Source: Synergistaceae bacterium
GTDB taxonomy: Bacteria; Synergistota; Synergistia; Synergistales; Synergistaceae
NCBI GenBank assembly: GCA_031269875.1
Contig: JAISYM010000112.1
Location: forward strand, 1 to 37,252
Length of the DNA: 37,252 bases
Direction of reading: 5' to 3'
This document shows, piece by piece, positions 27,006 to 37,105 of this stretch; the first letter of the stretch is position 1, and each line of letters opens with the position of its first letter. The position numbers and the translations under genes are program-made. Under the pieces are notes generated by a model, which saw only the letters and a list, made by a program, of their open reading frames with translations, ran no database searches and was not told the DNA's origin.

Positions 27006-27881
27006 ATGCCCAATCTCGCGCCGTGGGAAATTGAGGAGAATGAGCGGTGGATGTATCCTGGTGGTGAACCGCCGGAGGATTTCACCGGTTCCGCCCGATT
27101 TACCTCCGGCCAAGTGTCCGACAGGACGGCCAGGAATCCCTCACGTTTCGAGAGGGGCGGGGAGGACGTGCCGGAGCGAAATATCGGCATAAATCCACAC
27201 ACAGCTGAAGAGCTTAAACGTATCGGCGCGTTCGAGGGCTATACTAAGTATCACAGGCAAGTGCTGGTAGCGTGCGCGCATATGCGTGAACACTTAAAAA
27301 AACTGGGCGCGGCGCTCTTCAAAGACTGCGAACTGGAATCCCTTCCTGAACGCTACGAGGAGATATCCCGCGAGCTCGAAGAAAACTGGAGGCTGCGGAA
27401 GCAGTCGCCGGAAGCGGTCAGGAGGGGGATATTCCTCGCGACCGAGTTAATAAAGGCTTTCCCCGTCTATAGGTTCTTTATCCCGCTCAAATCGCCTCTC
27501 AGACTGGTTGGCTGTATGGCTGACAGACTGGACGCCTCACAGGTGTCGCTGGTCTTGGACAAGATCAACAGACTGCCAAGCGCGCCCTACTCCGAGCCGT
27601 CCTTCCTCGGCATGAGGTGCGTCGCGTGCGACCGCTTGATGAGCTTTTATCTCCGCGCTGGAGAGTACGACAAAGCACTCGACGCCTGCGACTGCGGCAT
27701 TACGCTCGAAAGTGCCGACCCTCGCTCGAAGAACAGGTTCCAGCGCCGGAAAAAAGCCATCATCGAGATGGTCCATAAAAAAGGCTCGGCGAAAGACAAG
27801 ACGAAAAACACTTGGGGCTTCAGCTACGAAAGGCAATTCAAGAGGTCGTTACACGACTTTTCTAACGCCACCCTTCGATAG
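27006..27881 (+). CDS. Hypothetical protein, possible TPR-like C-terminus
   Basis: I do not recognise this 291-residue protein. The N-terminal ~75 residues are polar and likely disordered. The rest is mostly helical with many charged residues and no signal peptide or membrane helix. Residues about 208-265 (C-D-R-L-M-S-F-Y-L-R-A-G-E-Y-D-K-A-L-D-A-C) resemble a tetratricopeptide repeat. Cys residues cluster in that region (M-R-C-V-A-C and C-D-C-G). The ATG at 27006 is chosen because TGGAGGCG lies just upstream; a more upstream start would be in an AT-rich leader. It converges with the next gene and overlaps it by 33 bp at the 3' ends. Confidence 0.75.
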   Translation: MPNLAPWEIEENERWMYPGGEPPEDFTGSARFTSGQVSDRTARNPSRFERGGEDVPERNIGINPHTAEELKRIGAFEGYTKYHRQVLVACAHMREHLKKLGAALFKDCELESLPERYEEISRELEENWRLRKQSPEAVRRGIFLATELIKAFPVYRFFIPLKSPLRLVGCMADRLDASQVSLVLDKINRLPSAPYSEPSFLGMRCVACDRLMSFYLRAGEYDKALDACDCGITLESADPRSKNRFQRRKKAIIEMVHKKGSAKDKTKNTWGFSYERQFKRSLHDFSNATLR

Positions 27882-28286
27882 CCAAGCCGCCGCCCTTTCC
27901 TTGATATCGCCGTGCAAGACGATCTTCGCGCCCTCGACGTGAGCGCCGCACCCAAGCCCTTTGCGCATGGCTTTGGCAATCGCCGCCGCGGTACTGGCGT
28001 CCGGCTCCGGCTTGAGGCTGACCATGATGACCGTTCGCCCTCCCCTTCCGGCCGTTTCCCTGTGAAGCGCCGCCTGCGACGCTGACGCCAAAAATTTATC
28101 ATAGCCCACAGGCTCTTTCTTTGAATCCTGCGTATCGCCCTGAGCCGGACAAATTGCGGCAGCAGGCCGAGGAACGGGTTTCCCGACTACATCGCCGATG
28201 GAAAGTAAAAGATCGCCCTCTCCCCCGAGCGAGATTTGGCCGAAATCCCACGAATCGCCTCTCTTTTTCTTCTTTCCGCCGGACAT
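27849..28286 (-). CDS. SUI1/eIF1-like translation factor (YciH type)
   Basis: The 145-residue protein has a basic, low-complexity N-terminal half and a C-terminal SUI1 domain from about residue 80: G-R-G-G-R-T-V-I-M-V, then A-K-A-M-R-K-G-L-G-C-G-A and I-V-L-H-G-D. Bacterial YciH proteins bind the 30S subunit and influence start-codon fidelity. The ATG at 28286 has GGGGAGGT upstream; a longer frame would run into the dispersed repeat. The 3' end is antisense to the last 33 bases of the hypothetical gene. Confidence 0.88.
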   Translation of the reverse strand: MSGGKKKKRGDSWDFGQISLGGEGDLLLSIGDVVGKPVPRPAAAICPAQGDTQDSKKEPVGYDKFLASASQAALHRETAGRGGRTVIMVSLKPEPDASTAAAIAKAMRKGLGCGAHVEGAKIVLHGDIKERAAAWLSKGGVRKVV

Positions 28287-28334
28287 TTCAAAACCTCCCC
28301 ATAACGCTACCCCAGTGTCGCGGCACCTATCACA

Positions 28335-28376
28335 ATACCAATTTGAAAACAAAGGCCTGAAGGTGAAGATTTGAAA
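28335..28376 (-). repeat. Dispersed 43-bp repeat, copy 3 (inverted)
   Basis: On the minus strand this reads TTCACCTTCAGGCCTTTG followed by TTTTCAAATTGGTAT, matching 14208-14250 closely with one base deleted near its start. It lies about 50 bp upstream of the SUI1-like start codon and would be in that gene's leader. The remaining bases up to the trpB promoter at 28526 contain nothing that I can name. Confidence 0.7.
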
Positions 28377-28525
28377 CCGCGCAGCCACGTCGTCCAACAT
28401 CGAACGATTCCTATTTCGCGATTGCTCTTTGATGACCGCGCGGCGCAAGGCCGCGACAGAATTTTATCATAAGATTATCCGCAGTGCCTGCCAAACCCAG
28501 ATCAAGCCCCCGGTGAATCGTCTGC

Positions 28526-28554
28526 TTGCGTAAAGTTAAATTATGTGGTATAAA
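28526..28554 (+). promoter_or_regulatory. Probable sigma-70 promoter of trpB leader
   Basis: TTGCGT (28526-28531) and TATAAA (28549-28554) are separated by 17 bases. Transcription would begin near 28561, giving a leader of about 310 nucleotides before the trpB start. Confidence 0.6.
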
Positions 28555-28584
28555 GCATTCATACGATTTATCGGGGGAATTTTT

Positions 28585-28662
28585 GTGACAAGTGTTCGTG
28601 AATTTTATTTTTCCGTGGACGACGGATTTATGAGCGGTTTTTTGTGGCGGTGGCGTCAGTAG
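28585..28662 (+). CDS. Putative trp leader peptide
   Basis: A 25-codon frame starts at GTG (28585), six bases after GGGGGA, and ends with TAG. Its C-terminal residues are F-L-W-R-W-R-Q, with Trp codons at 28645-28647 and 28651-28653. An in-frame ATG at 28630 would give a 10-residue version. Tandem Trp codons just before a stop, ahead of competing hairpins and a terminator, are the hallmark of a ribosome-mediated attenuator; the trpB gene follows. No similarity to the E. coli TrpL sequence is implied. Confidence 0.75.
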   Translation: MTSVREFYFSVDDGFMSGFLWRWRQ

Positions 28663-28740
28663 ACGCCTACGTGTTTTTTCTGTGAATACAGAAGAGGCTC
28701 GGAGGTAACGCAATACTATCCCGAGCCTCTTTTTTATTTT
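28652..28740 (+). promoter_or_regulatory. Trp attenuator: pause hairpin, antiterminator and terminator
   Basis: Segment 1:2 is GGCGTC (28652-28657) pairing with GACGCC (28662-28667), overlapping the last leader codons. Segment 2:3 is GACGCCT (28662-28668, C bulged) pairing with AGGCTC (28695-28700), enclosing a TTCTGT/ACAGAA hairpin (28678-28693). Segment 3:4 is AGAGGCTCGG (28693-28702) pairing with CCGAGCCTCT (28721-28730) plus a T-rich tail, a rho-independent terminator. A ribosome stalled at the Trp codons would mask segment 1 and favour the antiterminator. Confidence 0.75.
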
Positions 28741-28792
28741 ATCTGTTTTAGGCCGCCGCGTCGTACATGCCGAAGCGAAAGACCGAAAGACC

Positions 28793-28830
28793 AAGAAGAG
28801 AGGCGAAAGTTAAAGCCTCTCTTCTTTTTT
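28793..28830 (+). terminator. Second terminator-like hairpin upstream of trpB
   Basis: A perfect 12-bp stem, AAGAAGAGAGGC (28793-28804) paired with GCCTCTCTTCTT (28815-28826), is followed by a T run. It lies only about 40 bp before the trpB start. It could be a second attenuation point, and the short direct repeat CGAAAGAC(C) precedes it. Confidence 0.75.
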
Positions 28831-28870
28831 ATGTTTTGTGTCTATATCAAAAAAAAGGAGGAAACAATCA

Positions 28871-30247
28871 ATGAGCAAAATACCTACCCGAATTTACTTG
28901 AGCGAGGACGAGGCGCCGAAATACTGGTACAACCTTCGGGCCGTGATGCGCAACAAGCCAGCACCGATTCTGCACCCAGGGACGCTCGAACCGGTGACGG
29001 CCGCGGATATGGAGGCGATTTTCTGCAAGGAACCCGTAAAACAGGAACTTGACGACACGACAAGGCTCATCCCCATTCCCGATGGCATTTTGGACTTTTA
29101 CCGGGCATATCGGCCGTCGGCGTTGATCCGCGCGTATTACCTTGAAAAAGCCTTGGAGACGCCGGCGGAAATATACTACAAGTTCGAAGGGACGAATACC
29201 TCTGGCAGTCACAAGCTGAACTCGGCGGGACCCCAGGCCTTTTACGCTAAAGAAGAAGGGCTTGCCCGCCTTACGACTGAGACCGGAGCCGGCCAGTGGG
29301 GTACGGCTATGGCTATGGCGGCCGCGTTCTACGGCGTAGAGCTTACCGTGTATATGGTGAAGATAAGCGCGGAACAAAAACCCTACCGCAAGGCCGTGAT
29401 GGAAACCTACGGGGCTAAGGTGTACCCGTCGCCGTCGGATACCACAGACGCCGGACGCGCGATTCTCGAACGGGATCCGGATACTTACGGTTCCTTGGGC
29501 TGCGCTATTTCAGAAGCGATTGAAACGGCGGTGAAAACCGACAGATGCCGTTACGTGCTGGGCAGCGTTTTAAACCATGTCCTGCTGCATCAATCGGTGA
29601 TCGGCCTTGAAACGAAAACGGCCCTTGACAAGTACGGGATCGCGCCGGACTTAATCATAGGGTGCGCGGGCGGCGGCTCGAACCTGGGCGGGCTCATCGC
29701 CCCGTTTATGGGGGAAAGAATCGAGGGGAAAAACAGCATCCGCTTTATCGCGGTCGAGCCGGCCTCCTGCCCGAGTTTTACCCGGGGCCGCTTCGCCTAT
29801 GACTTTGGCGACACCGCCAAAACCACCCCGCTCATCAAGATGAAAACATTGGGCAACGGCTTCATCCCCAGCAGCAATCACGCGGGGGGCCTCCGTTATC
29901 ACGGCATGAATTCCGTCTTGAGCCAGCTCTTCGAAGACGGCCTTTTGGAGGCCCGTTCCGAAACGCAGAACGACGTGTTTGAAGCGGCGGTAAAGTTTTC
30001 GAAGGTCGAAGGGATACTCCCAGCGCCAGAATCGAGCCACGCGATCAAGGCCGCCATTGACGAAGCGATCGAGTGCAAGAAAACCGGGGAGAAAAAAGTG
30101 ATACTTTTCGGATTGACCGGGACAGGTTATTTTGACCTTTCGGCTTATATGCAGTACAACGCCGGAACGCTCAGCGACAAAGTCCCCACGGACGACGATC
30201 TGGCGAAAGGCTTCGCGACCATACCGGACATCCCGCAGAATCGCTGA
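28871..30247 (+). CDS. trpB: Tryptophan synthase beta chain, TrpB2 type
   Basis: The 458-residue PLP enzyme condenses indole with serine. It is longer than TrpB1 and shows the TrpB2-type N-terminal extension (R-I-Y-L-S-E-D-E-A-P-K-Y-W-Y-N). It has the PLP lysine in G-S-H-K-L-N-S-A (Lys115), T-E-T-G-A-G-Q-W-G and the phosphate-binding G-C-A-G-G-G-S-N. The ATG at 28871 is supported by AAGGAGGA; an upstream in-frame start would lie in the terminator leader. No trpA or other trp gene is adjacent, so it may salvage indole. The attenuator upstream links its expression to Trp supply. Confidence 0.95.
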   Translation: MSKIPTRIYLSEDEAPKYWYNLRAVMRNKPAPILHPGTLEPVTAADMEAIFCKEPVKQELDDTTRLIPIPDGILDFYRAYRPSALIRAYYLEKALETPAEIYYKFEGTNTSGSHKLNSAGPQAFYAKEEGLARLTTETGAGQWGTAMAMAAAFYGVELTVYMVKISAEQKPYRKAVMETYGAKVYPSPSDTTDAGRAILERDPDTYGSLGCAISEAIETAVKTDRCRYVLGSVLNHVLLHQSVIGLETKTALDKYGIAPDLIIGCAGGGSNLGGLIAPFMGERIEGKNSIRFIAVEPASCPSFTRGRFAYDFGDTAKTTPLIKMKTLGNGFIPSSNHAGGLRYHGMNSVLSQLFEDGLLEARSETQNDVFEAAVKFSKVEGILPAPESSHAIKAAIDEAIECKKTGEKKVILFGLTGTGYFDLSAYMQYNAGTLSDKVPTDDDLAKGFATIPDIPQNR

Positions 30248-36861: not shown

Positions 36862-36920
36862 CCAGACATACGGCTTATGCCGCATCTCCCGTGTCCCCGC
36901 GGGCATGCTTATTTATAAAG

Positions 36921-37069
36921 ACCTCCGGGCCGGTATCCTGGCTCGCCATCACCCTCCCCGACGCCTTCCCGACTTTCGGTCGGTGGCAATATGTCGGCTC
37001 GTCCGGCTTACAGTGGCGGGTACCGCGCCGGCTCCCCGAAACGCTCCGGCTTCCCTGACACCCGCAGGT
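36921..37069 (-). ncRNA. Cobalamin riboswitch upstream of nrdDG
   Basis: Read on the minus strand, the element has a closing P1 stem (ACCTGCGGG at 37061-37069 with CCCGGAGGT at 36921-36929). It has the core GGGAAGCCGG, then CCCGCCACTGT (37010-37020). It ends with the B12 box GAGCCAGGATACCGGCC (36928-36944), close to the family consensus AGCCAGGAGACCNGCC. Order and spacing match the class. In the presence of adenosylcobalamin it should lower nrdDG expression. Confidence 0.95.
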
Positions 37070-37077
37070 CAAATGTG

Positions 37078-37105
37078 ATTATATATCATATCAATTTGAA
37101 GTCAA
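37078..37105 (-). promoter_or_regulatory. Probable sigma-70 promoter of the riboswitch-nrdDG unit
   Basis: On the minus strand, TTGACT (37100-37105) and a perfect TATAAT (37078-37083) are separated by 16 bases, placing the start just ahead of the riboswitch. The promoter lies inside a segment (about 37089-37121) that weakly resembles the dispersed 43-bp repeat. Beyond it, 37122-37252 holds a GGGCCGGCCC palindrome around 37140-37152 and no gene that I can support. Confidence 0.65.

Follow-up and report, generated by a model that had tools for sequence, protein, structure and literature searches.

A candidate tryptophan attenuator with two terminators upstream of a horizontally acquired trpB2 gene in Synergistaceae

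The region at positions 28526-28870 of a 37,252-nt window (the whole stretch of DNA analyzed here, from a Synergistaceae bacterium) probably contains a ribosome-mediated tryptophan (Trp) attenuator that acts on the gene trpB2, a reading to which a probability of roughly 0.8 is assigned. For the Trp attenuators of the Synergistota in general, the evidence tilts somewhat toward a relay in which the 3' arm of the first terminator (T1), freed only upon ribosome stalling, would act as the antiterminator of a second terminator (T2). The first-pass annotation of the region, which was made from the sequence alone, had already proposed an attenuator. This interpretation is supported but was incomplete, as it had missed T2 (which lies inside 28526-28870), the pairing between T2 and T1, the existence of a family across the phylum and the acquisition of the gene by horizontal transfer.

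Architecture of the leader region

A scan of 84,980 species genomes for relatives of the TrpB2 protein yielded three Synergistaceae MAGs (loci L001, L002, and L003) with proteins that are 93-96% identical; judging from their names, these MAGs were presumably sampled from termite guts. All elements described for the region are located on the + strand. The promoter (28526-28554), as read from the sequence, comprises a -35 element TTGCGT (28526-28531), a 17-nt spacer and an extended -10 element TGG-TATAAA (28549-28554), and lies under the threshold of a simple generic promoter scan. The arrangement TTGCG-17-TATAAA is common to L001-L003, and a similar one is found in trpP-type leaders of related genomes. 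The ribosome-binding site of the leader, GGGGG, is located at 28573-28577; at each of the four trpB2 loci, the start codon is preceded by an invariant GGGGGAATTTTT, and the Shine-Dalgarno sequence GGGGGAAUUUUU is kept in L001, L002, and L003, which are three independent MAGs.

The leader ORF (28585-28662) codes for the peptide MTSVREFYFSVDDGFMSGFLWRWRQ, starting with GTG at 28585 and ending with TAG at 28660-28662. Its two Trp codons (28645-28647 and 28651-28653) are non-adjacent and fewer than in most relatives. The leaders of the three MAGs terminate at the corresponding position, with the endings SWRWWP, SWRWWP, and LWRWRQ, and follow the same GGGGGAATTTTT; length differences amount to whole codons. 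Frame, start, WRW(W) ending and Trp codons are conserved in four of four trpB2 loci. The end of the leader ORF is overlapped by the pause hairpin 1:2 (28647-28672), which has the core GGCGUC-AGUA-GACGCC (28652-28667). It is followed by the antiterminator 2:3 (28665-28706), which pairs off the 5' arm of T1. For the RNA left free by a stalled ribosome, up to the T1 loop, a single long hairpin is predicted for 28665-28706, the tip of which is the "helper" hairpin described earlier; as long as the T1 3' arm is not yet transcribed, the antiterminator is the fold predicted to be most favorable in each of the four trpB2 loci. T1 (3:4; 28693-28740) consists of the stem AGAGGCUCGG/CCGAGCCUCU and a U tract. 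All the elements named by the first-pass annotation, namely promoter, GTG-initiated leader with W-R-W, pause hairpin, antiterminator with helper hairpin and T1, were thus found in the sequence.

That annotation had also suggested looking for covariation in the hairpins. In the four trpB2 sequences, covariation amounts to only two doubly changed pairs, one each in the pause hairpin (pair 28656-28663, U-A to G-C in L001/L002) and in T1 (U-A to C-G), whereas the antiterminator has none in this set. Both the pause hairpin and T1 exhibit a standard pair in every counted cell (100%) of the four-sequence alignment.

T2 (5:6; 28793-28830), with the stem AAGAAGAGAGGC/GCCUCUCUUCUU (28793-28804 and 28815-28826) followed by a U tract, is kept in four of four trpB2 loci. 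Inspection of the four sequences by eye revealed no short ORF that is conserved in the stretch from T1 to T2. T2 was also considered as a dispersed repeat and rejected as such: the motif occurs once per relative, at the trpB2 locus, and the two other matches in the window's genome have a different loop.

The attenuator family and its second terminator

Weaker matches of a model built from the four sequences (R1) proved to be Trp attenuators. With a threshold of E 0.001, a covariance model of 15 sequences (R2) has matches in 84 of the 188 Synergistota genomes. Among the opened R2 matches, 61 distinct loci from 58 genomes and 34 genera carry a leader that is rich in Trp, typically as WWW or WWWW, and has its end at the pause hairpin; the conservation of leader codons as Trp, which the first-pass annotation had proposed as a check, therefore extends from the four trpB2 loci to the whole phylum. 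At one of the 61 loci, L127, the WWWW run is present and the reading frame continues past the usual stop. Twelve opened matches without a Trp-rich leader (L125, L128, L129, L133, L160, L180, L181, L183-L186, and L188) were set aside. The genes downstream of the 61 loci include trpB1, trpD, and trpE as well as genes for an SNF symporter, an ABC substrate-binding protein and TrpP transporters, the last of these assigned at 26.6 bits, slightly below the 27.2-bit Pfam cut-off. Trp-rich attenuator leaders also precede an amidohydrolase (L179) and a protein without a Pfam match in its first 120 residues (L177), both of which would be unexpected members of a Trp regulon. An antiterminator capturing no less than half of the 5' arm of T1 is predicted for 56 of the 61 loci.

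T2, defined by a stem of -12 kcal/mol or better and a U tract, was found at 56 of the 61 loci compared with 11.9% of dinucleotide shuffles; at -18 kcal/mol or better, the figures are 50 of 61 and 2.0%. The only group with T1 and without T2 consists of five loci (L138, L141, L148, L149, and L151; genera g6, g9, and g16), all of them trpB1 leaders with a terminal NSWWCV or a similar sequence. Consequently, T2 is not indispensable, and this group constitutes a natural comparison for its role.

In the window, region 4, which is formed by the T1 3' arm and U tract (28725-28735; GCCUCUUUUUU), is complementary to the T2 5' arm (region 5) over 11 pairs. The combination of 2:3 and this 4:5 pairing is predicted at -30.8 kcal/mol and 3:4 alone at -21.5 kcal/mol. 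If all other pairs are allowed, the 3:4 fold is slightly better (-46.3 versus -44.1 kcal/mol for 2:3 plus 4:5), and a relay would therefore have to act kinetically, with timing deciding the outcome, as is the case for attenuators.

Proposed mechanism and alternative explanations

We infer the following course of ribosome stalling, RNA folding and T2 disarming. If the ribosome front is taken as 12-15 nt ahead of the A site, a ribosome with a Trp codon in its A site would reach at most ~28666 and leave 2:3 nearly whole, while a ribosome at the stop codon would reach ~28672-28675 and block 2:3. When Trp is plentiful, the ribosome would run to the UAG and its footprint would cover the start of the antiterminator, upon which T1 (3:4) would form and transcription would stop. 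Polymerases leaking past T1 would meet T2 (5:6), because the T1 3' arm would already be in use. When charged tRNA-Trp is scarce, the ribosome would stall at either Trp codon. The 2:3 hairpin, starting just past the footprint, would then capture the T1 5' arm, and the freed region 4 would pair with region 5, thereby disarming T2 and allowing trpB2 to be transcribed. If such a relay exists, a single stall would open both gates and the second gate would catch the leak of the first, resulting in tight repression while induction is kept.

The coupling of T2 to T1 has to be weighed against a simpler arrangement, in which a standard trpL-type attenuator operates on T1 only and T2 is an unregulated backup terminator, its likeness to T1 resulting from duplication or from both terminators favoring GC stems that have purine 5' arms. 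That T2 is missing at five loci would suggest that T1 suffices, and the T2 stems resemble the T1 bases; the outer T2 stems (e.g., GACGCG...CGCGUU), however, are unlike the upper stems of T1. Moreover, a strong, unregulated T2 would block trpB2 under starvation as well, and a mere backup function is judged less likely. The pairing of regions 4 and 5 across genera also argues against this explanation: duplex energies are -14.5 kcal/mol for matched, -12.7 kcal/mol for swapped and -8.7 kcal/mol for letter-shuffled partners. The advantage of matched over swapped partners has a z of -5.3 over 53 loci (T2 arms clipped at two of them) and a z of -3.7 with one row per genus (30 genera, 200 draws, mean p 0.0006, maximum 0.01), the latter test using wider T2 arms. 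The swapped control preserves composition and T2-like character, and drawing one row per genus removes kinship within genera, while deeper kinship stays. Compensatory 4:5 variants were found to follow each lineage, as in GCCUCU/AGAGGC, GGAACCC/GGGUUCC (L139), GGCUCU/AGAGCC (L163), GCGGCU/AGCCGC (L173), and UGGCCCU/AGGGCCA (L177). These comparisons indicate lineage-specific matching, with which both function and a shared origin of the two terminators (T2 as a copy of T1) would be compatible. On balance, regulation through T1 only appears doubtful, and the relay is retained as the preferred reading.

Two further explanations would dispense with a translated attenuator. T-boxes (RF00230) precede the clostridial trpB2 orthologues at L051, L052, L054, L068, and L072, which makes a T-box or another tRNA- or ligand-sensing leader conceivable in place of a translated attenuator. 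Yet the region has no gathering-level match in Rfam, the T-box model is absent even at E 5, and a translated leader with Trp codons is conserved in frame at all four trpB2 loci, which renders a sensor of this kind very improbable. The GTG start, the presence of just two Trp codons and the promoter score under the scan threshold might alternatively suggest that leader peptide and hairpins arose by chance and that the gene behind them is constitutive. This is contradicted by the retention of promoter, Shine-Dalgarno sequence, frame, Trp codons and alternating hairpins in four MAGs, by the 61 loci of the phylum and by the folding energy of the 181-nt region (-60.6 kcal/mol versus -43.9 +/- 3.7 kcal/mol in shuffles; z -4.5, reached by 0 of 200 shuffles), so that coincidence is the least credible explanation of all.

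Should the relay be correct, the whole phylum would use an attenuator design with two coupled terminators, for which no description concerning Trp was found. Neither Trp attenuators of Synergistota nor a two-terminator coupling of this kind are described in the open-access papers that were searched, which is weak evidence of absence as the subscription literature lies mostly outside this search; the earlier supposition that the arrangement is little described in Synergistota agrees with this result. In a genome-wide RNA survey, the passage devoted to the Synergistetes species Thermovirga lienii does not report Trp attenuators (PMC6429828).

Function and origin of trpB2 and comparison with known systems

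The trpB2 gene (28871-30247), preceded by a ribosome-binding site AGGAGG (28856-28861), codes for a TrpB-like PLP enzyme of 458 aa. It scores above the cut-offs of TIGR01415 (547 bits, cut-off 519) and NF009057 (647 bits), and under the cut-off of the TrpB1 model TIGR00263. Genes for trpA and trpC are absent from the window's genome and five near relatives, while the same searches were positive in 14 of 14 controls; with the genome being 94% complete, the risk that genes were missed is small. No second trpB-like gene was identified in the window's genome by a protein search that used TrpB2 rather than a TrpB1 model. Since these genes are absent, TrpB2 is the only visible route to Trp in the genomic data and would require indole from outside. 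The lone TrpB2 target, in genomes devoid of trpA and trpC, fits the indole salvage envisaged by the first-pass annotation, and TrpB2 may thus use indole in the cell. A convincing tryptophanase was not seen in the window's genome; strong matches to PF01212 were rejected as candidates, since these frames of 350-377 aa, in our judgement, fit threonine aldolase better. The arrangement suggests that amino-acid-fermenting gut bacteria unable to make Trp have a regulated source of it in indole.

A phylogenetic tree of 58 TrpB2 proteins places the four Synergistaceae rows together in a clade nested among termite-gut spirochaetes, with a support of 100/98 for the group of seven rows; the TrpB2 of a different Synergistota genus, g38, branches far away. 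On this phylogenetic evidence, trpB2 was acquired horizontally and is of spirochaete ancestry. In 82 trpB2 loci of other lineages, R2 identified no attenuator upstream of trpB2, the only matches being two weak ones (22.9 and 19.8 bits) at the Bacillota locus L077, which overlap on opposite strands ~2 kb downstream of the gene. No leader was found before the g38 trpB2 loci. The closest leaders outside trpB2, promoter included, belong to trpP- and trpE-type loci of related genomes, and the acquired gene therefore probably ended up downstream of a native Trp leader. A salvage gene would in this way have become controlled by the Trp sensor of the host lineage itself, while its spirochaete and clostridial orthologues carry other control elements. 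In clostridial trpB2 T-box leaders, the orthologous gene and the tRNA-charging signal are shared with the region studied here and the sensor differs. The trpB2 genes of termite Treponema have neither T-box nor attenuator, and only an operator-like palindrome near the promoter.

The leader resembles E. coli trpL in its short peptide with Trp codons near the stop, pause hairpin, antiterminator and U-tract terminator, and the same response to charged tRNA-Trp is expected. As in the trpL type, 2:3 is predicted to exclude 3:4, the pause hairpin 1:2 overlaps the Trp-codon leader and intrinsic terminators precede the structural gene. However, E. coli trpL has one terminator, while two are present here; in addition, the pause hairpin is far shorter and overlaps the stop, the target is a single, horizontally acquired salvage gene, and there is no Rfam match. 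The his leader of E. coli/Salmonella is organized in AB, CD, and EF segments with mutually exclusive alternate pairings (PMC10989985). Its six-segment chain, flipped by stalling, corresponds to the one described here, with 1:2, 2:3, 3:4, 4:5, and 5:6 resembling AB, BC, CD, DE, and EF, and five successive, mutually exclusive pairings are likewise available here by complementarity. In the his leader only EF is followed by uridines, whereas in the present region 3:4 (CD) is a terminator as well as 5:6 (EF), and Trp codons replace His codons. As T1 also carries a U tract and the last hairpin is not the only terminator, the region can be said to work like a his leader rather than to be one.

Chlamydia trachomatis is likewise a Trp auxotroph whose indole-salvage genes, trpRBA, respond to Trp. 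There, control is exerted by TrpR and the trans-acting YtgR (WWW motif), and the sequence annotated as trpL is atypical and lacks validation (PMC7755916), in contrast to the cis control and clean leader found here. A second terminator in tandem is known from the rimP leader of Gammaproteobacteria (PMC2965389), where an antiterminator is also possible; this leader lacks an amino-acid leader peptide and differs in gene and signal.

Several additional elements were observed. In termite-gut Treponema (L004, L008, L014, and L027), an operator-like repeat GTTTCTATATAnAGAAnCG...TTTCTnnATATAGAAACG adjoins the trpB2 promoter and represents a possible repressor site. In Synergistota genus g38 (L086-L109), a conserved motif like CAAATATGCTACACAGAAAA-TTTT...TATAAT upstream of trpB2 is perhaps an activator or repressor site. 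A sub-threshold T-box match (66.5 bits; G000:C81:3016-3301, L198) is located elsewhere in the window's genome. Within the window, a divergent ORF (27849-28448, - strand) lies upstream of the leader, the C-terminal part of which, in our judgement, looks like a SUI1/YciH-type translation factor. The sole Rfam match at gathering level in the window is a cobalamin riboswitch (RF00174, 85 bits) at 36911-37080 on the - strand.
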